Assembly: GCF_018449475.1 (NCBI RefSeq)
Contig: NZ_JAHCQH010000012.1
Coordinates: forward strand, 1 to 64,000
Length of the DNA stretch: 64,000 bases
DNA from: Ancylobacter radicis
GTDB taxonomy: Bacteria > Pseudomonadota > Alphaproteobacteria > Rhizobiales > Xanthobacteraceae
Direction: 5' to 3'
The notes under the pieces were generated by a model. It did not search any database. It worked only from the letters and a program-made list of their open reading frames with translations, and was not told where the DNA came from. Positions 1 through 64,000 of this stretch are shown here, piece after piece; position 1 is the first letter of the stretch, and each line of letters starts with the position of its first letter. The position numbers were made by a program, and so were the translations under genes.

Positions 1-303
1 GGTAACGCGGTTCCGAGAACGTAAGACCGCCGAAGTCTCATCCGACATCCAACCCCGAAGGATCGGACATCCGCAAGGACCCCGCCGTCCACGTTTCTCT
101 TTCTTCATCTTAACTTGTCAAACAGCGCGCCAGCTCAAAGCCAGCAGAGAACCGAAGCCCTCAACCTAAGGGCTCACACCCTTAGAAGTGTCGACGCCTT
201 TCCCTCCGGCGGACGCCGGTCTTTCGACCCCGTCGATGAAGGGAAGGTCAGGAGCGCCTCGCTGCAGCGGCCGGAGCCGGTGGTCGGCGGCGCCCCGTCG
301 ATG
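1..303 (-). ncRNA. Probable 5' leader of an rRNA operon (16S beyond left edge)
   Basis: Read on the minus strand, this stretch follows a strong promoter, has no convincing reading frame, and contains GCTGTTTGACA (boxA-like) near 116-126, then GAAGAAAGAGAAACGTGG, which I recall as typical of sequence just upstream of 16S rRNA in Hyphomicrobiales. It includes several hairpin-prone segments, for example CCTAAGGG...CCCTTAG around 167-186. I infer that the 16S gene starts to the left of position 1. An alternative is the start of a small protein at 48 reading leftwards (MSDETSAV...), which I consider less likely. Confidence 0.6.
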
Positions 304-309
304 GCGCGG

Positions 310-339
310 TTTATAGGCTGGCTTGCCCGAAGCTGTCAA
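310..339 (-). promoter_or_regulatory. Strong sigma-70-type promoter, probably rrn
   Basis: On the minus strand a perfect TTGACA (334-339) is followed 18 bases later by TATAAA (310-315), or 17 bases later by CTATAA. This is the best match to a housekeeping promoter in the window. Its position ahead of the leader-like sequence at 1-303 supports an rRNA operon promoter. Confidence 0.65.
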
Positions 340-646
340 CGGCTCCTGCCAAGAAAAATGACAGGCTCACGACACTGTTGATAAGCGGCCCAGAGAAAGG
401 GAAAAAATGCTGACCTTTCAGAGGCTTATCAAAATCGCTCGAAAAGCCTCGAAAAGCCGCGCCCCGCACGGGCGCCCCTGAAAAGCCGGTTCGTCCGCCG
501 GGAGAGCCCGCAAACCCCGCTTTGGGGGTCAAAACCTGCCCCAATCGGTGCAGGGCGTCGGATCGACTGCCTGCCAAACGGGCATTTGCCGGGGTTTCCC
601 GCCCGTCTCCCGCGCCGGGCGCCGCCAACGCCGTCCCCGCCGGCAC
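340..646. other. Intergenic stretch upstream of the rrn promoter
   Basis: GC-rich DNA between the end of the DUF1737 gene and the rRNA promoter. Overlapping frames exist here on both strands, but none has family resemblance or a good ribosome site. I see no RNA gene or repeat in it. Confidence 0.4.
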
Positions 647-48288: not shown

Positions 48289-48441
48289 AGCACCGCGCCG
48301 GCTGTTGCGGGCCCTGATCGACGACGTGATGTCGCGCACCCGCATTCGCCGCTTCACAAGATTGACACGCTAAATATAGACTATCGCCGTGCGTCGGACG
48401 GCGCTCGAGTCGCCGAGCCGGCGCCCTTTTACAGGGAGCGA

Positions 48442-49002: not shown

Positions 49003-49048
49003 CCCCGGCCGCAGATACCGAGGCGATCCTCGGGCGGAACGCGCGCCG

Positions 49049-49567
49049 TCAGCGCGTCACGGCCCCGCGCAGCGCCACCAGGGTCAGCGCCACGGCGATG
49101 AAGGCGTTGTAGCCGGCCAGCGAGAGCCCGAACAGCCGCCACGGCGCCTCGTCGCAGCGCACCACCCGTGCGCTCTGCAGGCTGTCCAGCATGTTGCCGG
49201 TGGACAGCGCCGGGCCGCTGCCCGAGCACGCATCCGGCCCCGCCCAGAACCCCCATTCGACGCCGGCATGGTAGATCGCCAGGCACGCCGCCAGCGCCAT
49301 CAGCATGCCGGTCAGCGACAGCGCCATGCGCGCATGGGACGATTTGCCGGCGGCGGCGAGGGCCACCGCCACAAGGGCGAGCGGCACGCCGACATAATAG
49401 GGAATGCGCTGCTCCAGGCAGAGCGGGCACGGGGCCAGCCCGACGACAAGCTGGAAATACCAGGCGCCGGCCAGCGTGCCGGCCGCCGCCACCGCGACGA
49501 TGAGCCCGGCGGCGATCTGCACGGAGCGCGACGCGGAGGAGGCGGGAGCGGAAGTGGCGGCAGTCAT
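49049..49567 (-). CDS. dsbB: Disulfide bond formation protein B
   Basis: A 172-residue inner-membrane quinone reductase that reoxidises DsbA. Four membrane segments are visible. The first cysteine pair is LAPCPLCLEQRIPYY near 46-60, with the conserved Gln-Arg after it. The second pair lies in the second periplasmic loop, as Cys in DACSGSG and Cys in VVRCDEAPWR. This is the canonical layout, unlike the longer relative at 36015. ATG 49567 was preferred to an ATG 11 codons earlier. No dsbA gene is adjacent. Confidence 0.88.
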   Translation of the reverse strand: MTAATSAPASSASRSVQIAAGLIVAVAAAGTLAGAWYFQLVVGLAPCPLCLEQRIPYYVGVPLALVAVALAAAGKSSHARMALSLTGMLMALAACLAIYHAGVEWGFWAGPDACSGSGPALSTGNMLDSLQSARVVRCDEAPWRLFGLSLAGYNAFIAVALTLVALRGAVTR

Positions 49568-49658
49568 TGGCGGGCATCCCGTGGTTCGATGGCGGTACAA
49601 CTAGCCACCCCGCCTGCCGTTGCAAGTCACGATTGGGCGCGGCGCTCCTGCGGCAAGG

Positions 49659-49690
49659 CGTGGATGGCCGGGTCAAGCCCGGCCACGACG
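49659..49690. repeat. Palindromic repeat, single hairpin, unit D1
   Basis: Only the GTGGATGGCCGGGTCAAGCC...GGCCACGACG hairpin of the repeat family is present, between dsbB and the esterase gene at 49853. Confidence 0.82.
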
Positions 49691-49748
49691 TCGATTGGCG
49701 AAAATGCGTCGGGCGCACATCGGGTCCGGCGAGCGCCACCAAGAACAC

Positions 49749-49780
49749 CGTCATCCCCGGGCTTGACCCGGGGATCCACG
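49749..49780. repeat. Palindromic repeat, single hairpin, unit D2
   Basis: Only the CGTCATCCCCGGGCTTGACC...GGGGATCCACG hairpin is present, 58 bases after D1. The order of the two halves is reversed relative to units A and C, as if they belong to two separate broken units. Confidence 0.82.
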
Positions 49781-49852
49781 TCTTTGGCGCGGCGCATCCA
49801 CGGCTTGCCGGGAAGAAGAAGGGTGCGCCACGCGCCCCTGACGCCCCTGACT

Positions 49853-50686
49853 TCACCGCTGCGCGAAGCGCAGGGCGCGGGCCATGGCGGGGGGGAGCAC
49901 CGAAGCGTGGTCCTCCCCGGCGAGCAGGGTGAACTCCACCTGCGCCAAGGGGCCGAGTTGCGCGGCGGCGCGCGCCGCGAAGGCTTCCGCACGGCTCACC
50001 ATGCCGCGCGCGGCGCGGCGGGCGGCCATGTCCGCGCTCGACGGCCCACCAAGCTGCCAGGGCGCCATCGCCTCCTCCCACTCGCCGACCATCAGCGACA
50101 GCCGCAGCGGCTGCCCCTGCGCCCGCGCCAGCCCCTCGATGAGCCGTGGCTCATCCCACCAGATGGACGGGCTGACCGCCACATAGGCGGCGAAGGCGGT
50201 GGGATCGCGCAGCGCCACATCGAGCGTGAACCAGCCACCAAGCGAATGGCCGAACAGCGTCCGCCGGGCCGTATCGACCGGAATCATCGTGGCGATGCGT
50301 GGCAGCACCTCCTCCTTGATGACGGCGAGAAAGGCATCGCGCCCGCCCGTCGTGCGGCGCGAGGCGGGAGGGTCGGCGCGCATCTCGGCGCTCGGCCCGG
50401 CCGTATAGTCGACGGTGCGGCGCGCGCTCCTGTCCTCATCCTCGGGATAGCCGATGCCGACCAGTACGATGTCCTCGATGCCAGTCGCCTGCGGCCGGCC
50501 GGCGCCGCGCCGCATCACCTCGACAAAGGTGGCGAAAGCGGCATTGGCGTCGAGCATCAGCATCAGCGGAAAGCCGCCGGGCGGCGGCGCGCCGCGCGGG
50601 CGGGCGAGGAAAATGCGGTAGGCCGCCCCCCCGCGCGCGGGAGCGAGATCGAACCACTCGGCATCGGGAACGGTCAAAGCGGGCAT
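49853..50686 (-). CDS. Putative siderophore esterase (IroE/BesA-like)
   Basis: A 277-residue alpha/beta hydrolase of the esterase-D superfamily (PF00756), as in ferri-siderophore esterases. FPLMLMLDANAAFATFVE near 39-56 is the oxyanion/N-terminal segment, FGHSLGGWFTL near 144-154 the nucleophile elbow, and AGEDHASVLPPA near 258-269 holds the catalytic His. No signal peptide is visible, so it is probably cytosolic like Fes or BesA. Divergent from the iron-siderophore permease gene, 247 bases apart. Hydrolysis of the DHB-serine siderophore after uptake is the likely job, inferred from context. Confidence 0.8.
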   Translation of the reverse strand: MPALTVPDAEWFDLAPARGGAAYRIFLARPRGAPPPGGFPLMLMLDANAAFATFVEVMRRGAGRPQATGIEDIVLVGIGYPEDEDRSARRTVDYTAGPSAEMRADPPASRRTTGGRDAFLAVIKEEVLPRIATMIPVDTARRTLFGHSLGGWFTLDVALRDPTAFAAYVAVSPSIWWDEPRLIEGLARAQGQPLRLSLMVGEWEEAMAPWQLGGPSSADMAARRAARGMVSRAEAFAARAAAQLGPLAQVEFTLLAGEDHASVLPPAMARALRFAQR

Positions 50687-50819
50687 GGCGGCTCCCTGCC
50701 CGGATAAGCGGCGGGCACCCCTGCTCTAGCCGATGCGGCGCCGCGCGCAAGGGGGTGCGCGGGCCTGCCGGGAGAACGGCCGCCGACGTGACGCAGCGGC
50801 GCCGCCGGCGGCGTCCAGA

Positions 50820-50839
50820 CTGAAACGATTCCAAGGAAT
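50820..50839. promoter_or_regulatory. Possible iron-responsive site in the esterase/permease divergent region
   Basis: CTGAAACGATT (50820-50830) is identical to 43803-43813 at the edge of the palindrome upstream of sdhC. It overlaps ATTCC-AA-GGAAT (50828-50839), a short inverted repeat. Located 95 bases before the permease start. Regulator not identified. Confidence 0.35.
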
Positions 50840-50933
50840 TTGCTTTCTCTGCCATGAGCTTGACCCCTTGGGGAGGCTCATGCAGAACCGTTCATGTCCG
50901 ACGCGGAATGTGCGCGGGGGCGCCGGAGACCGC

Positions 50934-51989
50934 ATGACCGACATCTCGCCCCACGCCACCGAACTTGCCGCCTATGCGCGGCTGGTGCGCCGGCGCGTCC
51001 TCATCGTCGTCGGGCTCGGCGCGTTGATGCTCGTCGCCCTGCTGTTCGACATCGCCACCGGTCCTTCCCGCCTGCCGCTCGGCGATGTCATCGCCGGCAT
51101 TCTCGACCCCGCCTCGCTCGACGGGCCCGCCCGCGTCATCATCTGGCAGGTCCGCCTGCCCTATGCGCTGATGGCGGTACTGGTCGGCGCCGCGCTGGCG
51201 CTCGCCGGGGCGGAGATGCAGACCATTCTCAACAACCCGCTGGCCAGCCCGTTCACGCTGGGCGTCTCCTCGGCCGCCTCCTTCGGCGCGGCACTGGCGC
51301 TGGTGATGGGGGCGAGCCTGCCGCTCCTGCCGGCCGAGTGGAACCTGCCGCTGTTCGCCTTCATCTTTGCCTTCGGCTCGGTGCTGCTGCTGCAGGTGCT
51401 CGCCGGGATGCGCGGCACGGGGGTGGAGACGCTGGTGCTGTTCGGCATCGCGCTGGTGTTCACCTTCAACGCGCTGGTGGCGCTGATCCAGTTCGTCGCC
51501 AGCCAGGAGGCGCTGCAGCAGCTGGTGTTCTGGAGCATGGGGAGCCTGTCGCGCGCCAGCTGGGGCAAGCTCGGCGTGCTCGCACTGGTCGCACTGGTCA
51601 CCTCACCGTACTCGCTGGCCGCCTCCTGGCGCATGACCGCGCTGCGGCTGGGGGAGGATCGCGCGCGGTCTTTCGGTATATCCGTCAAGAGGTTGCGCTT
51701 CTTCTCGCTGCTCCGGGTGAGCCTGCTCGCCGGCACCTGCGTGGCCTTTGTCGGGACCATCGGCTTCATCGGCCTGGTCGCCCCCCACATCGCCCGCATC
51801 CTGGTCGGCGAAGATCACCGATTCTTCTTGCCTGCCAGTATGTTAGCGGGAGCGTCCATCATGTCGCTGGCCTCCGTGGCGTCCAAGACCCTGGTCCCCG
51901 GCGCCCTCCTCCCGGTCGGCATCGTCACCGCGCTGATCGGCGTGCCGTTCTTCATGGCGCTCATCTTCACGCGCCGGGAGCGGCTGTGA
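50934..51989 (+). CDS. Iron-siderophore ABC transporter permease (FecCD family)
   Basis: A 351-residue inner-membrane permease with about ten hydrophobic segments. The family's signature regions are LPYALMAVLVGAALALAGAE near 78-97, NNPLASPFTLGVSSAASFGA near 103-122, and the late FVGTIGFIGLVAPHIAR near 258-274, which contacts the ATPase. GGAG seven bases upstream supports ATG 50934; an in-frame ATG at 50880 is an alternative. It is the only permease gene here, so the channel is either a homodimer or needs a partner from elsewhere. The ATPase start overlaps its stop by one base. Confidence 0.9.
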   Translation: MTDISPHATELAAYARLVRRRVLIVVGLGALMLVALLFDIATGPSRLPLGDVIAGILDPASLDGPARVIIWQVRLPYALMAVLVGAALALAGAEMQTILNNPLASPFTLGVSSAASFGAALALVMGASLPLLPAEWNLPLFAFIFAFGSVLLLQVLAGMRGTGVETLVLFGIALVFTFNALVALIQFVASQEALQQLVFWSMGSLSRASWGKLGVLALVALVTSPYSLAASWRMTALRLGEDRARSFGISVKRLRFFSLLRVSLLAGTCVAFVGTIGFIGLVAPHIARILVGEDHRFFLPASMLAGASIMSLASVASKTLVPGALLPVGIVTALIGVPFFMALIFTRRERL

Positions 51990-52762
51990 TGGCGCTGCAT
52001 GTGACGGGCCTGTCGGTCGGCTACGGTCGCCGCCCTATTATCGAAGGTCTTGATATAAAAGAGATTTCCGGCGGCTCCGTGACGGCCCTGATCGGCCCCA
52101 ACGCCGCCGGCAAGACCACGCTGCTGCGGGCCCTCGCCGGACTGGTGCCGGCCAAGGGATCGATCCGTCTGGATGATGTGGAGTTGGCCTCACTGTCCGT
52201 CGCCGGTCACGCCCGCCACGTCACCTATATGCCGCAGGCCCTGCCGCAGCGCGTGGCGCTGACCGTGCTTGAGGCCACGCTGAGTGCGCTCATGTCCGGG
52301 GAGGAGGGCAGCAAATCGCCTGCGCAAGCACGGCTGCGCGCTCTCAACGCATTGGAAAGGCTTGACATTTCCGACCTCGCCATGCGCGGCCTCGACGAAC
52401 TGTCCGGCGGCCAGCGCCAGTTGGCCAGCCTCGCCCAATCCATCGTGCGCGAACCTTCGGTGCTGCTGCTGGACGAGCCGACGAGTGCGCTCGACATTCA
52501 CCACCAGTTGCGGGTGATGCAGCTGGTGGAAGAACTCGCACGCGAACGCGGCATCATCGTCATCATCGTACTCCACGACATCGCCCAGGCGGCGCGCTAT
52601 GCGCAGCGGATTATCGTTCTGGAACAAGGCGCTATCGCCGCAGACGGTAGTCCGGCACAGGCGATCACGCCGGCCACGCTGGCGCGCGTCTACAAGGTCG
52701 AGGCGCGGGTCGAGGCCTGCTCGCGCGGCTTCCTCCAGGTCATCGTCGACCGCGCGCTTTAG
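51989..52762 (+). CDS. Iron-siderophore ABC transporter ATPase
   Basis: A 257-residue nucleotide-binding subunit energising siderophore import. Walker A is GPNAAGKTT near 36-44, the signature is LSGGQRQLASL near 136-146, Walker B is VLLLDEPTSALD near 156-167, and the H-loop His is in VLHDIAQA. Overlaps the permease gene in TGATG (one base shared between stop and start). Convergent with entA, 16 bases apart. The partner binding protein is probably the one at 62634, the far end of the locus. Confidence 0.92.
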   Translation: MALHVTGLSVGYGRRPIIEGLDIKEISGGSVTALIGPNAAGKTTLLRALAGLVPAKGSIRLDDVELASLSVAGHARHVTYMPQALPQRVALTVLEATLSALMSGEEGSKSPAQARLRALNALERLDISDLAMRGLDELSGGQRQLASLAQSIVREPSVLLLDEPTSALDIHHQLRVMQLVEELARERGIIVIIVLHDIAQAARYAQRIIVLEQGAIAADGSPAQAITPATLARVYKVEARVEACSRGFLQVIVDRAL

Positions 52763-52778
52763 TCGTCGGATCAAACAC

Positions 52779-53555
52779 TTAGCCGCGCAGCGTGGCGCCG
52801 CCATCGACATAGAGATCGGTCATGGTGATGTGGCTGGCGCGGTCGGACAGCAGGAACACCACCGACTCCGCTACCTCCTCGGGCGTCGCCAGCTTGCCGA
52901 GCGGAATGCCGGCCTTGAAGGTCTCCGGCGTGCCGGCGATGACCCGCGCGGCGCCGTTCTCATCCCCCCACATGCCGGTCTGCATGGGCGTCAGGGTCGA
53001 GCCCGGAGCGACAATATTGCAGCGAATTCCGTGACTTGCGAGCTCCAGCCCGAGGCAGCGGGTGAACATGGTGGCGGCGGCTTTTGAGGCCGCGTAGGCC
53101 GACATGGCGTGGCGGGGGATGCCGGCGGCGTTCGATGATACCGTCACGATGGCCCCGCGCTTCCTCGCCTGCATGACCTTCGCGACCTCCCGGCTGACGC
53201 GAAAAACCCCGCCTGCATTGATACTTAGCACCCGCTCCCACTCGGCATCGGTGAGCTCCGTCACCACCGTGTTGGAGAGCACGCCGGCAACGTTGGCGAG
53301 CAGGTCGATGGGGCCGATGTGGTGGACGATCAGGCCGATCAGTGCAGTGACATCCACTGACGAGGCCACATCCAGCCGGAACGGCGTCACCGCGTCGCCG
53401 AACTCGCTGGCGAGCGCCTTCACCCCCGCCTCGTCACTATCGGTGGCGACGACGCGGGCGCCCTCCTCCACGAGAAGGCGCACCACCGCCGCGCCGATGC
53501 CGCCGGCCGCGCCGGTGACGAGGGCGAGCTTGCCGTTCAGACCGCTGTCGCGCAT
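52779..53555 (-). CDS. entA: 2,3-dihydro-2,3-dihydroxybenzoate dehydrogenase
   Basis: A 258-residue short-chain dehydrogenase that oxidises 2,3-dihydro-DHB to 2,3-dihydroxybenzoate. [11 protein letters not shown] near 15-25 is the NAD-binding motif, NVAGVLSN near 88-95 follows, and the catalytic Tyr-Lys are in SAYAASKAA near 152-160. [20 protein letters not shown] resembles the EntA/DhbA substrate region (as in LYGEDGVQQVIEGS of related enzymes), which supports this identity over a general SDR. Its start overlaps the end of entF by 19 bases. Last gene of the leftward operon. Confidence 0.9.
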
Positions 53556-56500
53556 GTCGGCTCCTTGAAATCTTCCGCCGCCAGCAGGCGGGCGAGCGTG
53601 GGGGCGATGTGCGCGGTCGCCTCCGGCCCGGTGAGATGGGCGTGCAGCGCCGGCACCTCGATCACCGCGACCTCACGGGCATAGGCCCGCCACTGGTCGG
53701 GGGAGAGGTGGCGGCCCTGATGGTCGAGCCCGGCGCGGATATGGGTGATCGTGCCGTCATAGCGGCGGTGATGATGGCTGCGCACCAGACGGTTATTGCC
53801 GGCGACCACCCGCACCACGCCGTCGAGCGCGGCATCGGGCAGGCGCCCGAGCGGGCTGTCAGAGGCGCGCAGGAAGGCGAGCACGGAGGCGCGGGTGAGC
53901 GCCAGCGCCGGCAGCCGGTCGGGATCGTGGCCGGCAATGGCGATCAGCGCCTTGAGCGCGCCGTCCTCGCCGGGGTCCGGTTCGCCGCGCCAGACGTCGC
54001 AGGGGTAGGAATCGAGCATCACCACGAGCCCGACCTCACAGCCGAGATCGCGCAGCCGCACCGCCATGGCCTGCGCGATGATGCCGCCGACCGACCAGCC
54101 GAGCAGATGATAGGGGCCTTCCGGGCTGATGGCCCGGATGCGCGCGACATAATCGGCGGCCAGCGCCTCAAGGCTCGAAGGCACCGCCCCGTCCGGCGCC
54201 AGAGCGGGCGCCTGAAGGCCGTAGACCGTGCGGCGCGGCGCCAAGGCGCGGGCGAGCCGGCCATAGCACCAGGAAATGCCGCCGGCCGGGTGGATGGCGA
54301 ACAGCGGCGGCAGAGCGGGATCGCCCGCCACCAGCGTGATCAGCGGGTCGAGACCTGAATCCTCGCCCTGCCCTTCCGCATCGATCAGCCGGGCGAAGCC
54401 TTCGACGCTCGGCTGGGCGAACAGCGCGCCAAGGCCGGGATCGCGGCCGAACGCCTCGCGCACCCTGAGCAGCAGCGCGACGGCAGCGAGCGAATCCCCG
54501 CCCAGCGTGAAGAAATCATCTTCCGCCGCGATGGGCGTGGCGAGCTGAAGCTGGTCGGCGAACAAAGCGGCGAGGCGCTGCTCGGTCGGCGTTTCCGGCA
54601 CGCGCTGGCCGGTTCCCGCGAAATCTGGGGCGGGCAGCGCACCACGATCCAGCTTGCCATTGGCGTTCACCGGCAGCGCGTCGAGGGCCACGAAGGCGGC
54701 GGGCACCATATAGTCCGGCACCTTGGCGGCCACGCGCGCCTTGAGGATGGCGAGGTCCGCGCCGGGCTCGGGCACGACATAGGCGACGATGCGCTTGGTG
54801 CCGCGATCCTCGCGCGCGACAATGCCGGCCTGCCGCACAAGGCCGGAGGCCATCACCGCCGCCTCGATCTCGCCGAGCTCGATGCGCAGGCCGCGAATCT
54901 TGATCTGGTGATCCGAGCGGCCGAGATAGACCACCGCGCCATCCGGGCGGATGAGCGCGAGATCGCCCGTCGCGTAGATGCGTTCGCCCGGCTGGTGCGG
55001 GTCGGCGACAAAACGCTCGGCCGTGAGGTCCGGGCGGCCGAGATAGAAGCGCGCGAGCTGCACCCCGCCGAGATAGAGATGACCCGCCACATTCGGCGGC
55101 TGCGGGCGGCCCTGCTCGTCCAGCACATAGAGCCGCGTGTTCCACACCGGAAAGCCGATCGGCACGGAGAGCGAGCGGTCGTCGCGCGCGGCGGGCCAGT
55201 AGCTCACATCCACCGCCGCCTCGGTCGGCCCGTAGAGATTGTGCAGCTCGGCCTTGAGCGTGCGGTGGAAGCGGTCGCGCAGATCCGCCGGCAGCTCCTC
55301 GCCGGAGCAGAACACGCGGGCAAGGCTCAGCCCCTGCGCACTCGGCTCGGCGAGGAAGGCGGCGAGCATGGAGGGCACGAAATGCGCTGTCGTGATGGCC
55401 TCGGCGCGGATGAGGCGGGCGAGCGCCACGGGATCGCGATGCGCCTCCGGCGGGGCGACGACCAGCGTGCAGCCGGTGAGGAAGGGCAGGAAGAATTCCC
55501 ACACCGACACGTCGAAGGTCGCCGGGGTCTTCTGCAGGATGATGTCGGCGGGCGTGAAAGCGTAATGCTCCCGCATCCATTCCAGCCGGTTGACGATGGC
55601 GCGGTGCTCGATGACGACGCCCTTCGGCTCGCCGGTCGAGCCGGAGGTGTAGATCACATAGGCCGCGTCACCGGGCTTGGGGCCCGCCAGAGGGGTGCCG
55701 GTGGGATCGCGCGGCCAGGCGGCGGGCGAGAGCACGGGAACGCCGGCAAAGCGCGGCGCATCGCCCTCCCGCGCCAAAACCAGCTTCGGGGAGGCGGAGG
55801 CGAGGATGCGGGCGAGCCGCGCATCCGGCTGGGCGAGATCGACCGGCAGATAGGCGGCGCCCGCGCGGATGATGGCGAGAAGCGCGATCACCAGTTCCAG
55901 CGAGCGCGGCAGCGCCACCACGACGATGTCCTCACGGCCGATGCCCCGTTCGGCCAGCGCCTCGGCCAGCGCGCGCGAGCGGGCATCGAGCGTCGCATAG
56001 TCCAGCGTCTGGCCCTCGAAGCGCAGGGCGGGAGCGTCGGGCGTCTCCCGCATCCGCGCCTCGATCAGGGCGGCGAGCGTGGTGTCGGGCACCGGGTGAT
56101 CGGTGGCGTTGAGCGTCACCAGCGCCCAATGGGCTTCCTCGGGCGTCGCGGTCGGCACCGTGTCGAGCGTATCCGCGTCGCTCGCAGCAGCGATGAACTG
56201 CGCGAGGCGCGCCGCATGGGCCTCGACGCTCCCCGCATCATAGAGGTCCGGGTTGGCGTCGACCTCAAGCCGCAGCCCGTCCGTGCCGTGCAGGCGGAAG
56301 GTGAAGGTGATGTCCTCCACCGGCCCGGTGCTCAGCACCTCCAGCCGGCTCTCCAGCCCGGCAAAGCGGGGTTTCTCGTCGAAGGGCAGCAGGTTGATGA
56401 GCGGGCCGTGCAGCCGCCGCTGGCCGCCGATCAGCTTGAGGTCGCGGCGCAGCTGCTCGCTGCGGTAGCGCCCATGGCGGCGGGCGCGGGTGAGGCTCCT

Positions 56501-57445
56501 GGCGACCCCCGTCAGATAATCCGCCAGCGGCGCGCCGGCCGGCACCGCGACGCGCAGCGGCAGCACATTCATCAGCATGGCCGGCACGCGCGCCGCCGCG
56601 CTGCCCATGCGGGCCATGAAGGGCACCCCGACCACCACCTCGGGCGTCGCCGTATGGCGCTGGACATAGGCGGCGGCGAGCGCGGTGACGACATCCGGCC
56701 ATGGCACGTTCACGCGGTCGCCCAGCGCGCGCAGCCGGGCGAAGGCGGCGCGATCGATCTCCACCGCGCGGCGATGGAAGGTGAAGGCGCTCGCCGGATT
56801 ACCCGCCGCGAGGCTCGCCACTTCCGGCCGGTCGGCGAACAGGGCCTGCCAATAGGCGCCATCGGCCGCCCGCTTTTCCGAGGCGCGGTAGGCGGCGTCC
56901 TCATTGAGCGCGACCCGCACCGAGGGCAGAGGGTTGCCGGGCGCGTTCCCGGTACGGGCGGCGTTGTACAGTTCGGCCACGCGCTGGGTGAGCAGGATGA
57001 TTCCATAACCATCAATGGCGAGATGGTGGACGCGCTGCTGCCAGATGTGCCTGCTGGGGCCAAGGACGAACAGCCGCTGCGCGGCGAGCGGGTCGCGGGT
57101 CGGGTCGAGCGGGGTCGCCATGTCGCGGGCAATATCCGCCAGCGCCGCCGCCAGCGGATCGGGCGCATCGGCAAGGTCGATCAGCTCCAGCGCCGGGCGG
57201 TGCGCCGGATCGAGACACTGGCGCGGCCCTGCGGGGTCGTCGATCATACGCAGGGAGAGCGCGTCAGCCTCCTCGACCAGCTGCGCCAGCGCGGCGGCGA
57301 AGGCCGCGCGGTCCAGCGGGCCGGTCAGCTCGATATACTGGCCGGCATGGAACAGCGGGTTGGCCGGGTCGAGACGCTGCGCGTACCACAGCCCCGCCTG
57401 CGCCTCGGCGAGCGGGAAAGTCTCGGCCTCAGGGGTTCCCGTCAT
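53537..57445 (-). CDS. entF: Single-module NRPS, EntF-type (C-A-T-TE)
   Basis: A 1302-residue synthetase. The condensation domain (about 8-440) has HHLAIDG at 140-146. The adenylation domain (about 465-960) has YTSGSTGEPKG and GRSDHQIKIRGLRIELGEIE. The carrier domain has FFTLGGDSLAA near 1000, and the thioesterase has GWSVGG. Specificity residues that I can read (TFDVSVW, TTAHFVPS, RVFCSGE, NLYGPTEAAVD) give D-V-W-H-F-S-L-V-D-K, the same as E. coli EntF, so serine is predicted. It would join DHB to Ser and cyclise or release the oligomer. Four bases follow the carrier-protein gene. No MbtH gene is seen nearby. Confidence 0.93.
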   Translation of the reverse strand: MTGTPEAETFPLAEAQAGLWYAQRLDPANPLFHAGQYIELTGPLDRAAFAAALAQLVEEADALSLRMIDDPAGPRQCLDPAHRPALELIDLADAPDPLAAALADIARDMATPLDPTRDPLAAQRLFVLGPSRHIWQQRVHHLAIDGYGIILLTQRVAELYNAARTGNAPGNPLPSVRVALNEDAAYRASEKRAADGAYWQALFADRPEVASLAAGNPASAFTFHRRAVEIDRAAFARLRALGDRVNVPWPDVVTALAAAYVQRHTATPEVVVGVPFMARMGSAAARVPAMLMNVLPLRVAVPAGAPLADYLTGVARSLTRARRHGRYRSEQLRRDLKLIGGQRRLHGPLINLLPFDEKPRFAGLESRLEVLSTGPVEDITFTFRLHGTDGLRLEVDANPDLYDAGSVEAHAARLAQFIAAASDADTLDTVPTATPEEAHWALVTLNATDHPVPDTTLAALIEARMRETPDAPALRFEGQTLDYATLDARSRALAEALAERGIGREDIVVVALPRSLELVIALLAIIRAGAAYLPVDLAQPDARLARILASASPKLVLAREGDAPRFAGVPVLSPAAWPRDPTGTPLAGPKPGDAAYVIYTSGSTGEPKGVVIEHRAIVNRLEWMREHYAFTPADIILQKTPATFDVSVWEFFLPFLTGCTLVVAPPEAHRDPVALARLIRAEAITTAHFVPSMLAAFLAEPSAQGLSLARVFCSGEELPADLRDRFHRTLKAELHNLYGPTEAAVDVSYWPAARDDRSLSVPIGFPVWNTRLYVLDEQGRPQPPNVAGHLYLGGVQLARFYLGRPDLTAERFVADPHQPGERIYATGDLALIRPDGAVVYLGRSDHQIKIRGLRIELGEIEAAVMASGLVRQAGIVAREDRGTKRIVAYVVPEPGADLAILKARVAAKVPDYMVPAAFVALDALPVNANGKLDRGALPAPDFAGTGQRVPETPTEQRLAALFADQLQLATPIAAEDDFFTLGGDSLAAVALLLRVREAFGRDPGLGALFAQPSVEGFARLIDAEGQGEDSGLDPLITLVAGDPALPPLFAIHPAGGISWCYGRLARALAPRRTVYGLQAPALAPDGAVPSSLEALAADYVARIRAISPEGPYHLLGWSVGGIIAQAMAVRLRDLGCEVGLVVMLDSYPCDVWRGEPDPGEDGALKALIAIAGHDPDRLPALALTRASVLAFLRASDSPLGRLPDAALDGVVRVVAGNNRLVRSHHHRRYDGTITHIRAGLDHQGRHLSPDQWRAYAREVAVIEVPALHAHLTGPEATAHIAPTLARLLAAEDFKEPTCATAV

Positions 57446-57449
57446 GCAA

Positions 57450-57734
57450 TCAGGCCCGCGCGGCCTGTTTGGCGCTGATGAGCGCCCACCAGCCATTCAG
57501 CGTCGGGGTTTCCGCGAAGTCGGAAAATTCCAGCTCCAGCCCGCCCTCGCTCCAGGTCAGCACGAGATTCATCGCGCGCATGGAATCGAGGCCGAGATCC
57601 ATCAGGCTGTCATCGCCGCCGATCTCGTCGGGGTCCTCATGCAGCATGCGGGCGATGTCGGCGCGCATCCGCTCGCGGGTGATCGGGGCAGCGGGGGCCA
57701 CGATGCGGGTGATATCGCCGGGCTCGATGGCCAT
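57450..57734 (-). CDS. Free-standing aryl carrier protein
   Basis: A 94-residue acyl carrier domain matching the C-terminal domain of EntB. DLGLDSMRAMNL near 47-58 contains Ser51, the phosphopantetheine site. The C-terminal TPTLNGWWALIS matches the TIDAWWKLLS end of EntB. It receives 2,3-DHB from EntE and presents it to the EntF condensation domain. In E. coli and B. subtilis this domain is fused to isochorismatase; here the genes are separate and overlap by one base. ATG 57734 was chosen; an upstream extension of 15 codons would overlap the isochorismatase end. Confidence 0.9.
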   Translation of the reverse strand: MAIEPGDITRIVAPAAPITRERMRADIARMLHEDPDEIGGDDSLMDLGLDSMRAMNLVLTWSEGGLELEFSDFAETPTLNGWWALISAKQAARA

Positions 57735-58378
57735 CACAGCACCTCCAGAACATCCGCGCTCATAAGCGGCACCGCGCACACATCCGCCGCATAGGCGAGG
57801 GCGAGGTCATGCTTGGCGCGGGAGAAATCGGCCAGCGCATCGGCCACCAGGAAGGGCTCGATGTCGCGCATGAAGGCGTCGGCGGCGGTGAGCGTGCAGC
57901 CGATATGGGCGTAGACGCCGCAGATGACGAGCTGGTCGCGGCCGCGCGCGCGCATCAGCGTCTCCAGATTGGAGCGCTGGAAGGCGCTGTAGCGGTGTTT
58001 CACTAGCACGAAGTCGCCGGGCTGCGGGGCGAGCGCGGCATGGATCGGCTGGTGCTCGGGCGCCCCGCTCATGCCGGGGCCCCAGAGGTCAGCCTGAAGG
58101 CCGCGGTCGCGCCGGTCCTGATTGCCCTCCTGCGCGGTGTAGAACACCGGCACGCCCGCCGCTCGCGCCGCCTCAGCCAGCGCGGCGATATGGGCGATCA
58201 CCGGCACGAGCGGGGAAGTATCGGGGGCGAAGACGCGCAGGAAATAGTTCTGCATGTCGTGGATCAGCAGCGCGGCGCGGTCGCGCTCCAGCTTCCATGG
58301 CCCGCGCGGGGTGGGGAGTTCCTCGCGGCGCGGCAAATCGTAGGGGGGAATCGTCGGCAGGCCGGGTTTGGCGCTCAT
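57734..58378 (-). CDS. entB: Isochorismatase, free-standing EntB N-terminal domain
   Basis: A 214-residue enzyme that removes pyruvate from isochorismate to give 2,3-dihydro-DHB. [16 protein letters not shown] near 6-21 is the EntB N-terminus. The catalytic Asp is in [10 protein letters not shown] near 37-46, the Lys in [11 protein letters not shown] and the conserved region is [20 protein letters not shown] near 148. The protein stops where EntB would continue into its carrier domain. It overlaps entE by four bases (ATGA). The start at 58378 matches the family; the upstream open frame lies in entE. Confidence 0.92.
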
Positions 58379-60003
58379 CGGGCGGCCTCCTGTTCGAGGA
58401 AGCGGCGGCGGAGATTCGCCCGCAGCTCCTTGCGCGAGACCTTGCCGACGGCGGTCGTCTCGAAGGCGTCGACGAAGACGATCTGGTCCGGCACCTTGAA
58501 GTCGGCGAGGCCGCGCGTGCGCATCCATGCCTTCAGCGCGGCGGCCTTGGGCTTCTCGCCTTGCGCGATGATGAAGGCGCAGGACCGCTCGCCCAAAAAC
58601 GCATCCGGCAGCGACACCACCGCCGCGTCGAACACGCTGGGGTGGCCGAGCAGATGGTCCTCGATCTCCTCGGCGGAGATCTTCTCGCCGGCGCGGTTGA
58701 TGTGGTCGCTGGCGCGGCCCTGCACGACGAGATAGCCCTCGGGGGTGCGCTTCACCACGTCGCCGGTGCGGTAATAGCCGTCCGGCGTGAAGGCGCGGGC
58801 ATTGGCCCCGTCATTATTGTGGTAGGCGCGGATCGTGTAGGGCCCGCGCGTCAACAGGTTGCCGGCCTCGCCCTCGGGCACGGGATGGCCCGCATCGTCG
58901 AGGATCAGCACCTCGTCGGCGTCGCTGATCGGCCGGCCCTGCGTCTCGACGATGATCTCGTCGGGGTCGTCGAGGCGGGTGTAGTTCACCAGCCCTTCAG
59001 CCATGCCGAACACCTGCTGCAGCGTGCAGCCGAGCACCGGGCGCACGCGGCGCGCCGATTCCGGCAGGAACTTCGCCCCGCCGACCTGCAGCACCTGAAG
59101 CGAGGACAGATCGTGCGTCGTCGTGGGCGCGGCCTGGAGCCACAGCAGGGCGAGCGGCGGCACGAGGCCGGTGATGGTCACCCGCTCGCGGGCGATCAGC
59201 GGGAACGCGGCTTCCGGGCTCGGCGAGGGCGCCAGCACGATGCGCGACCCCGCATAGAGCGCGCCGAACACGCCGGGCGAGCTCATGGGGAAATTATGCG
59301 CCACGGGGAGCGCGGCGAGATAGACGCTGTCGGGGCTGAGCTGGCAGATCTCCGCGCTCGCCCGGAACGAATAGATATAATCGTCATGGGTGCGCGGGAT
59401 CAGCTTGGAGAGCCCCGTCGAGCCGCCGGAAATCTGCAGGAAGGCGACCTCCGAGGGGTCGGCATCCTCGGGGAGCACCACGCCTTCGCCGGAGGGCAGC
59501 GTGTCGAGCGAGGGGAAGTCTCCGCCCTCCCCGACCACCACGACATGTTCCACGGCCGGCACCTCGGCGGTGACCTGCTGGGCCAGCGTCCGATAGTCGA
59601 AGCCGTCATGGTTCTGCGCCACGATATAGCCGCGCGCTTCCGCCGTGCGGGCGAAATGGGCGATCTCGATCTGGCGATGGGCGGGGAGCGCGTAGACCGG
59701 GACCAGCCGGGCGCGGAACAGGCCGAACACCACCGACAGAAATTCCGGGATGTTGGGAAGCTGCACCACCACCCGGTCGCCGGGCTGAAAGCCCAGCGCC
59801 AGCAGGCCACGGGCGATGCGTTCCGCGCGGGCCTCAAGCTCCACGAAAGTCCAGCGCGCCTCCCCGCCGACGACCGCGATGTGGTCCGGCATCTCCCGCA
59901 CGCGCTGGCGCAGGAACGAGGTGAAGGTCTCGCCGCGCCAATAGCCGGCGGCGCGGTAGCGCGCGGCACATTCCGGCGGCCAGACCTGTCGCAGCGGGAT
60001 CAC
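58375..60003 (-). CDS. entE: 2,3-dihydroxybenzoate-AMP ligase
   Basis: A 542-residue stand-alone adenylation enzyme that activates 2,3-DHB and loads it on the aryl carrier protein. The P-loop is [13 protein letters not shown] near 188-200. The substrate pocket segment is [13 protein letters not shown] near 236-248, with Asn where amino-acid-activating domains have Asp; this Asn is diagnostic of aryl acids such as DHB or salicylate. The C-terminal region has [20 protein letters not shown], and the catalytic Lys is in [13 protein letters not shown]. Overlaps entC at its start and entB at its end by four bases each. Confidence 0.94.
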
Positions 60004-61238
60004 GGGACCTTTTCCTCCAGCGGACGGCCATCCTCGTCAATGCCGAAGGCCTGAAGCAGCGCGGCGAATTTGGCGGAAGTCTCCTCCCCCTCAGCGATGG
60101 GATCGGAGCCCGGCACGATGCCGGCCCCGGCATAAAGCCGCGCCTCGCCGCCGGCAATCCGCGCGCAGCGAATGGCGACGTGCCAGGCGCCGTCCCCGGC
60201 CTCGTCGCAATGGCCGACGGCGCCGGCATAGAAGCCGCGATCATAGCCTTCCAGCTCCGCGATGAGCCGCGCCGCCGCCGGGCGCGGCGTGCCGCACACG
60301 GCCGGCGTCGGGTGCAGCAGCGCCGCAAGTTCCAGGCTGGAGAGCGCGGGGTCGCGCAGGCGGCCGGCAATGCGGGTGCCGAGGTGCCACATAGTGGCGG
60401 TCGAGGTGATCTGCGTGCCCTCGGGCGTGCCGAGTTCAAGGCAATAGGGCGCGAGCTGGTCGAGAATCGCCTCGACCACGGCGCGGTGTTCGCGCCCGTC
60501 CTTCTCGGAAACGGCGAGCGCCTGCGCGGCGGCCCGGTCCAGCGCCGGGTCGGCATGGCGGCGCGCGGAGCCGGCCAGCGGGTGGGAGAGGATCGCCTCG
60601 CCCCGTTTGGAAATCAGCAGCTCCGGCGTCGCGCCGATGAAGGCGCCGTCCCCCTCCGCTCCCGATACCGGCACGCAGAAGGTGGTGACGCTCTCGTCGC
60701 GGGCGAGGATGCGCAGGAGCGCGCGGGCGTCGATCGGCCGGTCGGCGGCGAGGCGCAGGCTGCGCGAGAGCACGATCTTGCGCAGATCATCCTCGCCATC
60801 CGCCATTTTCTCCAGCGCGGCCGCGACGGCGGCGCGGTAGGCGGGGAGCGTCGGCTCGGCCATGACCCGCCAGTGCGGGGCCGGCAGCGTATCCCGCGCG
60901 GCCGCCGGGGGCGCCGCCGGAAAGGCCGACTGGAGGGTTTGGGCGAGAGGCGAGCGGCCGGCGAGGCGGGTCAGCTCCGCCGGCTGGAACAGATAGGCGG
61001 GCGCAGCCATGTCGTAGGGCAGCGCGCCGACCAGCACACGCGGCCCGTCCGGCCGCGCGGCAAAATAGTCCCGCACGCGCGCCTGCACAGGCGCCGCGCC
61101 GGGATCGAGACGGCCGAGGCAGCCCCGGCCGATGAGCGTCTCGCGCCCCGAGACGAGAGCGAATGGCAGGGAAGCGGCGGCATCCGGCCGCGCCGGCCAC
61201 GTCGCGGCAGGCTCGTCCCTCATGCCGCGCATGCGCAT
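60000..61238 (-). CDS. entC: Isochorismate synthase
   Basis: About 412 residues. It isomerises chorismate to isochorismate, the first committed step to DHB. The chorismate-binding fold shows [10 protein letters not shown] near 160, [10 protein letters not shown] near 205, [10 protein letters not shown] near 225, [16 protein letters not shown] near 305 and [11 protein letters not shown] near 332, with metal-ligand glutamates late ([12 protein letters not shown]). The start is uncertain: ATG 61238 has GGAG close by, but 61223, 61262 and a GTG at 61286 are possible. Overlaps entE by four bases. Confidence 0.92.
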
Positions 61239-61330
61239 CGCTCCGCTCGGGCAGGCACTCATCGACAGGTACTCATCAGCACGCACTCATCGGCAGGTTG
61301 CTCGGCAATTCCAGCTCCGGGCGCGCCGGA

Positions 61331-62575
61331 TCAGGGCCGGATCAGCGTGACGGTGTCGCCGAAGGGGTCGACCATCGGCACCGGCCGGGCCCGCTCGCCA
61401 GCCGGAGGGGCCCCGGCGGGAGGCGCGCCAGCTGCAGGCGCATTTGCGGGCGGGGCACCAGCGGGAGCGGCGGCAGCAACCGGGGTGGGGCTGCCCGCCG
61501 GAGGCGCACCCGCAGCGGCCGGCGCGCCGGCGGGCGGAGCCGGCGGACGCGGACGCGGCACGCTCTTGAGCTTGTTCGTCACATAGGCGTTGCCGCTTTC
61601 GGGATCGAGCGCGATGGTCTGCGGCATGGACCCCGTCACCACATTGGCGATCGGCTCCAGCGTCTTGCTGTCGACCAGCGTGACGAAGCCGGCCGTGCGG
61701 TTCGCGACATAGAGAATGCTGCGCTTGGCATCGAGCGCGACGCTCAGCGCGCCGGCGCCGGTGGCGATCTTCTTGATCAGCTTGCCATCCTTGGCATCGA
61801 GCACGGCGAGTTCGCCCGAGCCCTGATTGGCGACGAACACCTGATCGCCGCTGGCGTCATAAACCAGGTTGATCGCGCCCTCGCCGCCCGACGGGTAGCG
61901 GTTCGTCACCTTCTTGGTGGCAAGGTCGAGCACCACCACCTCATTGGCCTGCAGGGCCGAGAGGAACAGGCGGTTGTTCTTCGCATCCAGCGAGATGCCG
62001 GCAATGCCGCCGGTCAGGCCCTCGATGGTGTCGACGATGGTGTTGGTCGCGCCGTCGATGATCCAGATGGCGCTCGGCGTGTCGCGCATGCCGAGCACGG
62101 TGACATAGGCGCGGTTGGCCGCCTCGTCGACCGCGACCTCGCGCACATGGGCCTTTTCGCCCCTGGCGAGCTTGGCCACGACCTTGCCGGTGGCGAGGTC
62201 GATCACGCCGACCGAGCCGTCGCGGGTCTGGGTGCCGTAGAGCGTCTTGGTCTTGTTGTTGATGCCGAGCCCGAACATCGGGTCGTCGCCCAGCGAGATG
62301 GCCTCCCTGGTTTCCAGCGTCGCCGGGTCCAGCGCCAGCACATGGGTGTCGGTCGCCCCGCGCGTGCCGGCGGCGGCGACATAGACGCGGCCCATCGCCG
62401 GGCTGAACACGACCTCGTAGAGGCCCGCGCCCGGCTTCACCTGCTTGACGAATTCAGGGTCCGCCAGCGCCGTGCCGCCAAGCGCGACCAGCGCGGTGGC
62501 GCACAGCATGGCGGAGCGCAGGAAGCGCGAACGGGACGGCAAATGGGACCGGGAAGGCGTCGCGTCGATGGGCAT
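61331..62575 (-). CDS. YncE-like exported beta-propeller protein
   Basis: A 414-residue periplasmic protein. A signal peptide ends near ALA-DPE (about residue 38). Repeated blades follow, with V-x-DLATGK-like and N-x-AYVT-like turns (GVIDLATGKVV, NRAYVTVLG, VVVLDLATKKV, AVLDAKDGKLI, LVDSKTLEPI), giving a seven-bladed YVTN-type propeller like E. coli YncE, which is iron/Fur-regulated. Near 337-395 a Pro/Ala/Gly-rich insert interrupts the last blade before DPFGDTVTLIRP closes it. Its place between the binding protein and entC suggests a role in iron or siderophore handling. ATG 62575 begins the signal peptide. Confidence 0.82.
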   Translation of the reverse strand: MPIDATPSRSHLPSRSRFLRSAMLCATALVALGGTALADPEFVKQVKPGAGLYEVVFSPAMGRVYVAAAGTRGATDTHVLALDPATLETREAISLGDDPMFGLGINNKTKTLYGTQTRDGSVGVIDLATGKVVAKLARGEKAHVREVAVDEAANRAYVTVLGMRDTPSAIWIIDGATNTIVDTIEGLTGGIAGISLDAKNNRLFLSALQANEVVVLDLATKKVTNRYPSGGEGAINLVYDASGDQVFVANQGSGELAVLDAKDGKLIKKIATGAGALSVALDAKRSILYVANRTAGFVTLVDSKTLEPIANVVTGSMPQTIALDPESGNAYVTNKLKSVPRPRPPAPPAGAPAAAGAPPAGSPTPVAAAAPAGAPPANAPAAGAPPAGAPPAGERARPVPMVDPFGDTVTLIRP

Positions 62576-62633
62576 GGCGTAACTCCGTTGGGGATGTCGT
62601 TGGCGGCACGGCGCTCCCGGCGAGCGGCGCGGT

Positions 62634-63803
62634 TCAATCGAGGTCGATCCAGTTCGGCCCCTCCACGGGGACCGCGAGGAAGCGGGCGTTGACCTCGGCG
62701 ACGGTGGCGTCGACATCGAGGTCGCGGAAACGCTCGGGATGGATCCACTTGGCGAGAATCTCGACGGTGAAGAGGTCGAGCGCGGAATTGAGCATCTGGT
62801 GCGACAGGCCGTGGACCCGCTTGTCGCGCACCGCCGCCAGCCCCGCGAAGCCCGGCCGGGCGATGACGCGGGCCAGCGTCTCGCGGGCGCGCTCAGGCGT
62901 GTATTCCGGCCCGATCAGCAGGCCGCCGGTGCCTTCCATATGGCTGCCGCCGGTGGCGATATAGACCTGCGGGTCCTGGGCGATGACATATTCGAGGTTG
63001 AGCTTGCCGAAGGCGCGCGGGATGACCGCCGCGCCGATATTGTCGCCGCCGACCCTCTCGATGATCTCGCCGACATTGCCGCGGCCGGGCGAATTGCAGC
63101 AATCCGCCGTCATGCCGGCATGCGGCTCCAGGAAGACGCGCGGGCGCTGCGTGGGCGGAAGGTCGGCCAGCTTGTCCGTCACCGCGGCGAACCGGGCGCG
63201 CCGGAAGGCCAGGAACGCTTCGGCTTTGTCGGACGCGCCGGTCGCCGCCCCGAGCAGGCGCAGACTCGGCTCGGTATTGGTCAGCGGGTGGGTGAAGAAG
63301 TCGATCACCACCACCGGGATGCCGGCGGCCTCGATACGCGCGCGCTCCTCCCCGCTCGGCTGGGAACCCAGCGAGAACACGGCGAGGTCCGGCCGCGCCG
63401 CCACCACCTGCTCGACCGACATCGACCCGGCCGAACTCGCCACCTTGGCGAGGGCGTCGATGGCGGGGAATTTCGCGCGATAGGCGTCATAGGTGCTCTT
63501 GCCGAGCCGGTTGATGTCGCGCGGCCAGGCGGCGAGCACGCCGACCGGATCGGGCTGGATCAGGGCGAGCGCGACGAGGAAGCGGCCATCGTCGATCAGC
63601 AGGCGATGGGCGGGCGCTGCGAGCGTCACCTGCCGGCCGGTCAGATCGGTCAGCACGATCTCGGCCCGCGACGGCACGGCCATCCCCGCCCACAGAGCGA
63701 GCACGGCGAGCGCCAGCCAGGCGCGCGCACCCCATCCGGGCGCCGGGCGGACGGAGGCGGGGCGGGCACTGGCGCGGCCACGGGGCGGGAGAAGCAAATT
63801 CAT
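62634..63803 (-). CDS. Iron-siderophore ABC transporter substrate-binding protein
   Basis: A 389-residue periplasmic binding protein of the FepB/PF01497 family. A long signal region ends near SRA-EIV (about residue 47). The two lobes are joined by a long helix: IVLTDLTGRQVTLAAPAHRLL opens the first lobe, VVAARPDLAVFSLGS and GIPVVVIDFFTHPLTNTEP follow, then VFLEPHAGMTADCCNSPGRG, an unusual Cys-Cys stretch that may bind ligand. It is first in the leftward series that also holds the DHB-serine synthesis genes, and should deliver the ferric siderophore to the permease at 50934. Confidence 0.88.
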   Translation of the reverse strand: MNLLLPPRGRASARPASVRPAPGWGARAWLALAVLALWAGMAVPSRAEIVLTDLTGRQVTLAAPAHRLLIDDGRFLVALALIQPDPVGVLAAWPRDINRLGKSTYDAYRAKFPAIDALAKVASSAGSMSVEQVVAARPDLAVFSLGSQPSGEERARIEAAGIPVVVIDFFTHPLTNTEPSLRLLGAATGASDKAEAFLAFRRARFAAVTDKLADLPPTQRPRVFLEPHAGMTADCCNSPGRGNVGEIIERVGGDNIGAAVIPRAFGKLNLEYVIAQDPQVYIATGGSHMEGTGGLLIGPEYTPERARETLARVIARPGFAGLAAVRDKRVHGLSHQMLNSALDLFTVEILAKWIHPERFRDLDVDATVAEVNARFLAVPVEGPNWIDLD

Positions 63804-64000
63804 CGAAACAATTTTCGCAGTGCTGCGGCGTGAACGTCGCGGTCATCCGCCCACGCGACAGAAGTGTCAACTAAACATTTCGTAACGACTTCTTTTGAAT
63901 TGGTCTAAATAAGAATAGTTCAAACAAGATTATCCTCATTTCCGATTTATACCGCCTGTTTCTGCCGGAAGGTCAGCAGTCCACCTTGACGTAACGCGAC
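63804..64000. promoter_or_regulatory. AT-rich control region at the right edge
   Basis: The stretch 63866-63960 is much richer in A and T than its surroundings. On the minus strand TTGACA (63865-63870) is a perfect -35 match, without a clear -10. AAGATTATCCTCATT (about 63926-63941) weakly recalls Fur sites. It likely drives the leftward siderophore operon and perhaps a divergent gene beyond 64000. Confidence 0.4.

Follow-up and report, generated by a model that had tools for sequence, protein, structure and literature searches.

Escherichia coli YncE is a seven-bladed beta-propeller of solved structure (3vgz, 3vh0 and 7seu), encoded by a Fur-repressed gene and without an established role. DNA binding features in the title of one of these structures, 3vh0. 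The gene adjoins the divergent pqqU and has no ent genes beside it. The first-pass annotation had described E. coli yncE as iron-regulated, and the accessible parts of the literature agree: a fur mutant overexpresses YncE (PMC5120174), Fur iModulons include yncE alongside ent genes (PMC10164565), and RyhB activates a yncE fusion, as it does one of cirA (PMC4666370). YncE is called a predicted iron-transporter component in the accessible text of PMC4666370, which gives no mechanism there. The link between YncE and iron is already in print, as judged from the accessible parts of a wider set of papers (PMC5120174, PMC10164565, PMC4666370, PMC12502724, PMC4670117, PMC10875860, PMC7688217 and PMC10710014). 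Among the matches listed in the open-access literature, no paper described a siderophore biosynthesis operon that contains yncE, which is not proof of absence.

Two further propellers offer comparisons, here as given in the accessible parts of their papers. AztD of Paracoccus and Citrobacter is exported, is encoded in an ABC operon beside the SBP of the importer and hands zinc to that SBP; it has eight blades, zinc-ligand residues, a disulfide and disordered tracts (PMC6689063). XusB (DUF4374) of Bacteroides is a surface lipoprotein with a functional loop inserted in one blade, and acts on ferric enterobactin together with a TonB-dependent receptor (PMC13142918).

The yncE gene within an enterobactin-type operon

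The window, that is the whole 64,000-nt stretch of DNA analysed, contains a yncE-like gene inside an ent operon. The features of this region are:

49853..50686, minus strand: Fes-like esterase (PF00756; aligns locally with E. coli Fes over 61 aa at 34%, E 3.7e-6)
50733..51989, plus strand: FecCD permease, convergent with the operon (PF01032)
51986..52762, plus strand: ABC ATPase of the importer (ORF and homologues adjoining FecCD; start set by the FecCD overlap)
52779..53555, minus strand: entA, 2,3-dihydro-DHB dehydrogenase (TIGR04316 over cut-off)
53537..57496, minus strand: EntF-like NRPS (40% identity to E. coli EntF; adenylation code DVWHFSLVDK, Ser)
57450..57779, minus strand: stand-alone carrier protein, presumably an aryl carrier (PF00550)
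57734..58378, minus strand: entB-like isochorismatase (PF00857; start chosen by eye)
58375..60003, minus strand: entE, DHB-AMP ligase (TIGR02275 over cut-off)
60000..61286, minus strand: entC, isochorismate synthase (TIGR00543 over cut-off)
61331..62575, minus strand: yncE-like gene for a predicted exported seven-bladed beta-propeller of 414 aa (profile, model and fold evidence)
62634..63803, minus strand: siderophore-type SBP (Peripla_BP_2), first gene of the operon (profile matches)
63865..63909, minus strand: conserved promoter-like block upstream of the SBP gene, AT-rich and ending in TTAGTTGACA

The genes of the minus strand run SBP-yncE-entC-entE-entB-ArCP-NRPS-entA. All are co-directional, with gaps of 58 nt between the SBP gene and yncE and of 44 nt between yncE and the longest ORF of entC. 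The first-pass placement of a yncE relative between a siderophore-binding protein and entC was correct, the Peripla_BP_2 gene lying on one side and entC on the other, on the same strand. The enterobactin-type set of entC, entE, entB, entA and an NRPS with a Ser code is complete. The adenylation code, read from an alignment at the positions which we take to define it, is identical to that of E. coli EntF. Since the NRPS resembles EntF and has the identical Ser code, the product of the operon is likely an enterobactin-type DHB-serine siderophore.

The E. coli ent/fep region likewise has entC-entE-entB-entA, an EntF-like NRPS with the same Ser code, a Fes-like esterase and an SBP gene upstream of entC. 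However, fepB and entC of E. coli diverge from each other with nothing between them, whereas in the window the SBP gene and yncE are co-directional with entC. The window has one FecCD gene where E. coli has fepD and fepG, and, unlike in E. coli, its carrier protein is separate from EntB and its NRPS lies between the carrier protein and entA. The window SBP gave no significant match to FepB. No gene for a PqqU/YncD receptor, such as adjoins yncE in E. coli, was found beside the window yncE among the neighbours or in the receptor search; TonB-receptor matches (E ≤ 1e-10) numbered seven in the genome and none on the contig of the window (C4). The best query against the receptors of several related loci was L054 (27–43% identity), which is noted as a lead only.

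The sequence TTAGTTGAC is present upstream of the SBP gene in 13/13 Xanthobacteraceae loci, with the AT-rich part of the block varying more, and the block at 63865–63909 looks like a promoter with an operator. A regular-expression search of the 13 regions upstream of the SBP gene, using patterns which we take to represent the IRO and ICE motifs, gave no iron box of either type. There was no Rfam match in 48000–64000 and no tRNA in the window.

Predicted fold, ring closure and the Pro/Ala-rich loop

The protein was recognised as YncE-like by the first-pass annotation, and profile searches concur. The match to PF21783 (YNCE) scored 46.5 bits, above the gathering score of 27.1, and phmmer matched E. 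coli YncE (3vgz) with E 4.5e-35. NF052280 (7_blade_YncE) gave 177.1 bits over residues 26–338, below its equivalog cut-off of 400, which is also missed by one Roseomonas and four Bacteroidota relatives (157–254 bits). The following elements of the protein are referred to below:

62462..62575, minus strand: putative signal peptide, residues 1–38 (type and cleavage after TALA by eye; model helix 17–33)
62438..62455, minus strand: N-terminal strand 41–46, probably the outer strand d of blade 7 (strand order and YncE alignment; lettering inferred)
61361..61570, minus strand: Pro/Ala/Gly-rich loop, residues 336–405, linking strands b and c of blade 7 (disorder predicted for the core, 340–398)
61337..61354, minus strand: predicted closing strand c of blade 7, residues 408–413, TVTLIR (AlphaFold model and structure alignment)

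The N-terminus resembles a Sec-type signal by eye, with a hydrophobic stretch followed by TALA and, after the cleavage point, DPEF. No lipobox was seen in the sequence by eye, nor any membrane anchor or second domain. From this signal sequence the protein is presumably periplasmic.

An AlphaFold model built from an alignment of 18 sequences has a mean pLDDT of 82.6 and 28 strands. Its best solved match is E. coli YncE (Foldseek, VIA-align; Z 43.5, rmsd 2.0 over 309 residues), with 29% identity. The alignment pairs model residues 41..414 with 32..353 of E. coli YncE, and with the solved YncE structures it extends as far as residue 414. Blade 7 would be made of strands a (317–323), b (330–335) and c (408–413), with the N-terminal strand 41–46 supplying d. 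Strand 408–413 sits in blocks of mean pLDDT 83–93, is aligned in 18/18 rows and includes an invariant residue, V409. Given this strand order and the structure alignment, the ring is predicted to close as that of E. coli YncE does, through the corresponding terminal strands. The velcro closure for which a structure prediction had been proposed is thus present in the model, and the residues originally named for it, DTVTLIRP, supply the predicted strand c, with the refinement that the N-terminal strand is the outermost one. The fold, the ring closure and the disorder of the loop are all predicted with good support.

Between K335 and the closing strand lie 70 residues, 74% of which are P, A or G, with pLDDT below 50 at residues 340–374 and 376–398. 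Thus, the low-complexity segment originally seen as an insert does split the last blade, but it expands a b–c loop that is present in all 18 aligned homologues. This loop has 41–70 residues in 13/13 Xanthobacteraceae copies (41–65 residues and 63–74% P/A/G in the 12 others), 12–17 in one Roseomonas and four Bacteroidota relatives, and is also short in E. coli YncE. Because the loop exists in short form in these other relatives and is long in the Xanthobacteraceae copies, the Pro/Ala stretch, judged from the alignment, is a lineage-specific enlargement of a pre-existing loop and not an insertion into a loop-free blade. Its flanks (RPRP-type and RPVPMVDPFGDTV) are largely conserved among the Xanthobacteraceae copies and its middle is not, and a weak 15-bp tandem repeat (61396–61441) underlies part of it. 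An independent case is provided by a second YncE in a DHB locus, that of genome G266, which has its own Pro/Ala/Gly insert of ∼42 residues in the loop that leads into strand a of blade 2. As this is a different loop, such loops arose at least twice.

The first-pass annotation had suggested that the segment may form a tether or a flexible periplasmic arm. Predicted disorder and a Pro/Ala/Gly-rich composition over 70 residues would suit such a part, as would the conserved Arg-Pro flanks and the separate insert in the G266 protein. However, both ends of the segment are fixed in blade 7, which makes it a loop and speaks against a tether, and there is no lipobox or second domain for it to join. Its length also varies freely, the homologues of three siderophore loci (L022, L024 and L026) managing with 14–17 aa, and slippage in a GC-rich gene, of which the weak repeat may be a trace, could account for it. 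We therefore consider a tether or arm improbable. A flexible lid or a loop for docking a partner is possible, and the blade-inserted functional loop of XusB is comparable.

Siderophore loci with and without YncE

Relatives were collected with peptide patterns from the window propeller, a search biased to close relatives, which returned 17 loci. Siderophore-type loci made up 15 of these; no recognisable iron-uptake context was seen at L025 and L027. The whole operon order is kept in 12/12 other Xanthobacteraceae loci, with 32–67 nt between the SBP gene and yncE (12 loci) and 10–96 nt between yncE and the next ORF (13 loci). Directly before entC is also the place of yncE in two Roseomonas, of which L022 has the order yncE-entC-...-entA-esterase and a plasmid of R. 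marmotae is arranged likewise. In two Bacteroidota loci (L024 and L026), a TonB receptor, a lipoprotein, an esterase and YncE are found together with SBP-FecCD-ABC, and the stretches examined gave no match to ent or other biosynthesis genes.

The position with biosynthetic genes, directly before entC, in the window, 12 other Xanthobacteraceae and the two Roseomonas loci could mean that YncE acts on the outgoing side, binding or protecting fresh apo-siderophore in the periplasm and so aiding its export or blocking its premature hydrolysis. This we hold to be unlikely, because L024, L026 and a Paracoccus aminovorans plasmid have YncE with uptake genes and no biosynthesis gene in the stretches examined.

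In the family sample, yncE (E ≤ 1e-30) was found in 4 of the 119 genomes. All four have the SBP gene, and entE lies 2.3–2.6 kb away (start to start); a fifth genome of the same genus has no match to yncE, to entE (E ≤ 1e-120) or to the SBP (E ≤ 1e-40). The chance that all four yncE genomes fall among the 14 with entE is 1.3e-4 if genomes are independent, which does not hold: all four, and with them the family-sample evidence for the association, come from one genus, and two of them (G445 and G486) are probably the genomes of loci L021 and L020. The class sample comprised 385 genomes, with at most six first-look candidates scored per genome, and gave close YncE matches in two, that of the window and G266, at E ≤ 1.1e-39 (one at 1e-40). 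Both lie in DHB-NRPS/SBP/FecCD loci, the G266 locus having entC, entB, entA, entE, NRPS, SBP, esterase, FecCD, ABC and TonB receptor genes. On a YncE tree of 24 rows (L018 left out), G266 and Paracoccus ferrooxidans share a long branch that is separate from the Xanthobacteraceae/Roseomonas one. The starred branches of this tree force at least two changes of the label 'ent locus', so the linkage is a repeated one.

YncE matches were found in 26 plasmid records, six of which were examined. The order is TonB receptor-PepSY-YncE-SBP-permease-ATPase on the P. aminovorans plasmid, TonB receptor-YncE-PepSY on that of P. ferrooxidans and TonB receptor-YncE on one of Pantoea; no iron-uptake genes were found beside YncE on the plasmids of R. 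mucosa and Pararoseomonas. The weaker class matches were followed in 20 regions, some on short contigs. Siderophore genes were absent from 17 of 19 of these (G266:C8 excluded) in tblastn searches with EntC, EntE, NRPS, SBP, receptor and other queries, a set that did not include EntA, EntB or the carrier protein; of the other two, L078 has a distant EntE-like ligase (28%) and the C13 region of the window's own genome has a receptor and an SBP, described below.

YncE is thus a member of the operon and is repeatedly associated with siderophore loci, and its siderophore role is well supported by genome context. The predicted co-occurrence with entCEBFA operons holds in one direction, all four yncE genomes among the 119 having entE and the SBP; the converse is weak, with yncE in 4/18 SBP genomes and 4/14 entE genomes. 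Since yncE co-occurs non-randomly with entE and the SBP, a lack of co-occurrence, one half of what the first-pass annotation had named as counting against its reading, is not what was found.

The exceptions define YncE as an accessory. The entE profile (TIGR02275, E ≤ 1e-120) matched 14/119 family genomes, ten of them without yncE, and the curated cut-off was passed by 5 of the 14, of which four have yncE. At five of the ten entE loci without yncE (L042 to L046), searches around the ligase gave no entC or NRPS homologue, so part of these ten genomes probably hold other ligases. Nevertheless, ent operons without yncE were seen at L039 and L041, and a ligase near an NRPS at L037 and L038. SBP homologues (E ≤ 1e-40) were present in 22/385 class and 18/119 family genomes, with a close YncE in only 2/22 and 4/18, respectively. 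Twelve SBP-FecCD-ABC loci, picked from genomes without a close YncE match, all kept the three importer genes, with a TonB receptor in 10/12 and an esterase in 7/12, and YncE in 0/12 within the examined stretch. Because most genomes with the SBP or entE do without it, YncE is an optional accessory part, dispensable for this kind of importer.

The scarcity of YncE at such importers (0/12 loci; 2/22 class SBP genomes) might also indicate a hitchhiker, a generic envelope propeller caught in the operon with no siderophore role. There is a slim chance of this, given that yncE is kept in place in 13/13 Xanthobacteraceae loci, is missing jointly with entE and the SBP from one genome of the same genus, and turns up in siderophore loci beyond its own branch and phylum. 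Separately, co-transfer of the importer with YncE was considered because FecCD of L024 is 65% identical to that of the window, and was rejected, the FecCD proteins of the 12 loci without YncE being 60–71% identical.

A possible carrier between receptor and SBP

The step from receptor to SBP is usually pictured as diffusion. We put forward, as an evenly balanced proposition, that the window propeller is an accessory periplasmic component for taking up the catecholate (DHB-serine) siderophore which the operon itself produces, binding it and handing it to the SBP. A TonB-dependent receptor would deliver the ferric siderophore to the periplasm, where the soluble exported propeller would bind, most likely, the ferric siderophore or a hydrolysed form of it. 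Binding would stop the siderophore from diffusing back, and the propeller would then pass it to the SBP of the adjacent gene, from which FecCD/ABC would import it. The b–c loop of blade 7, rooted beside the invariant K335, may serve as a lid or docking flap. The ligand, the hand-off and the role of the loop are what we infer from context and from precedent; were they correct, a soluble periplasmic carrier would be added between the receptor and the SBP.

The hand-off is modelled on AztD, which sets a precedent for a propeller giving its cargo to an SBP. As with AztD, the window protein appears to be an exported propeller encoded beside the SBP gene of an ABC importer, with the permease and ATPase genes nearby on the other strand, and the disordered tracts of AztD are a precedent for the window loop (accessible text of PMC6689063). 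However, the window protein is predicted to have seven blades and not eight, and the AztD profile NF038015 scored 16.7 bits against a cut-off of 400. The sole Cys, residue 25, lies in the signal, so the mature protein has no Cys and can form no AztD-type disulfide. Its only His residues are 78 and 143.

Four residues, Y53, R145, R293 and K335, are invariant in 15/15 diverse homologues. H143 is His in nine of the 15 (Xanthobacteraceae, Roseomonas and all but one of the four Bacteroidota rows) and is replaced in the remaining six. Three of the invariant residues are basic, which would fit a negatively charged cargo. Such a charge is common to PQQ and ferric catecholates, and the invariant residues do not single out siderophores because E. 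coli YncE, beside pqqU, has the same ones. The d-a/b-c side of the propeller was no more conserved than the other side (p 0.64 in A1, 0.80 in A4), so that any claim for a ligand face rests on single residues.

The propeller might instead carry another substrate of a TonB receptor, such as PQQ, its place in a siderophore operon reflecting shared iron regulation only. In E. coli, pqqU, which encodes the PQQ receptor, is transcribed divergently from yncE, and there is a weaker match to the PQQ-associated propeller family TIGR03866. This match reached only 81.6 bits against a cut-off of 287.3, and with at least two changes to 'ent locus' on the tree the linkage is repeated, which makes such a carrier very improbable. 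Another location is conceivable as well, with the propeller working outside the cell or in outer-membrane vesicles as a soluble siderophore trap, in the manner of the surface propeller XusB. E. coli YncE has been found in culture supernatants and vesicles (accessible text of PMC5120174), and a YncE-family protein is among those released by Asaia (accessible text of PMC12502724). The window protein, unlike the lipoprotein XusB, has a plain signal with no lipobox and gave no match to DUF4374 at E ≤ 0.01, and in two Bacteroidota loci a separate XusB-like lipoprotein, albeit from a low-confidence model, may fill the surface role. An extracellular function is thus distinctly unlikely.

This lipoprotein (L026:7473-8735 and L024:7492-8760) is 58% identical between two Bacteroidota families. 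It has 420 residues and a lipobox-like LSSC, is encoded between the receptor and esterase genes, and gave no sequence match in Pfam, NCBIfam or the PDB. XusB provided the six best PDB rows for its model in Foldseek (TM 0.47–0.56, rmsd 9–10), a ranking that is suggestive only because the model, made from two sequences, is poor (mean pLDDT 54). The lipoprotein is possibly an uncatalogued relative of XusB, in which case the L024 and L026 clusters would encode two propellers, one at the surface and a YncE that is exported separately.

A broader form of the carrier reading, which we offer tentatively and consider rather doubtful, is that YncE-family propellers are general periplasmic carriers of TonB-receptor cargo, being ferric catecholates in this branch. 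Some Bacteroidota would then operate a relay of surface XusB-like and periplasmic YncE propellers on one receptor, and the Pro/Ala loops, added independently in two branches, would be lids or docking flaps. If true, this would supply a mechanism for the iron-regulated YncE of E. coli. With relatives fixed in loci for making or importing siderophores, across two phyla and more than one YncE branch, a vague regulatory link becomes a specific, testable proposal.

Several minor observations were made in related genomes. The Roseomonas copies of YncE (L022:9809-10936 and L048:13824-14936) have, by eye, a twin-arginine-like RRRxLGLL near the N-terminus, and may be Tat substrates, unlike the window protein with its Sec-like signal. 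On two Paracoccus plasmids (L050:5658-7809 and L051:9106-11322), YncE is accompanied by DUF3649, PepSY and DUF3325 genes, which together may serve the reductive release of iron. A YncE-family propeller of another branch (L061:8399-9898, in G266:C8) has an extra N-terminal region and adjoins the TonB receptor in a DHB-NRPS locus. In the genome of the window itself, locus L079 (C13:79500-97000) contains a further YVTN propeller and, at a distance of ∼5 kb on the other strand, a TonB receptor and a second SBP homologue, the latter 34–37% identical to the window SBP.
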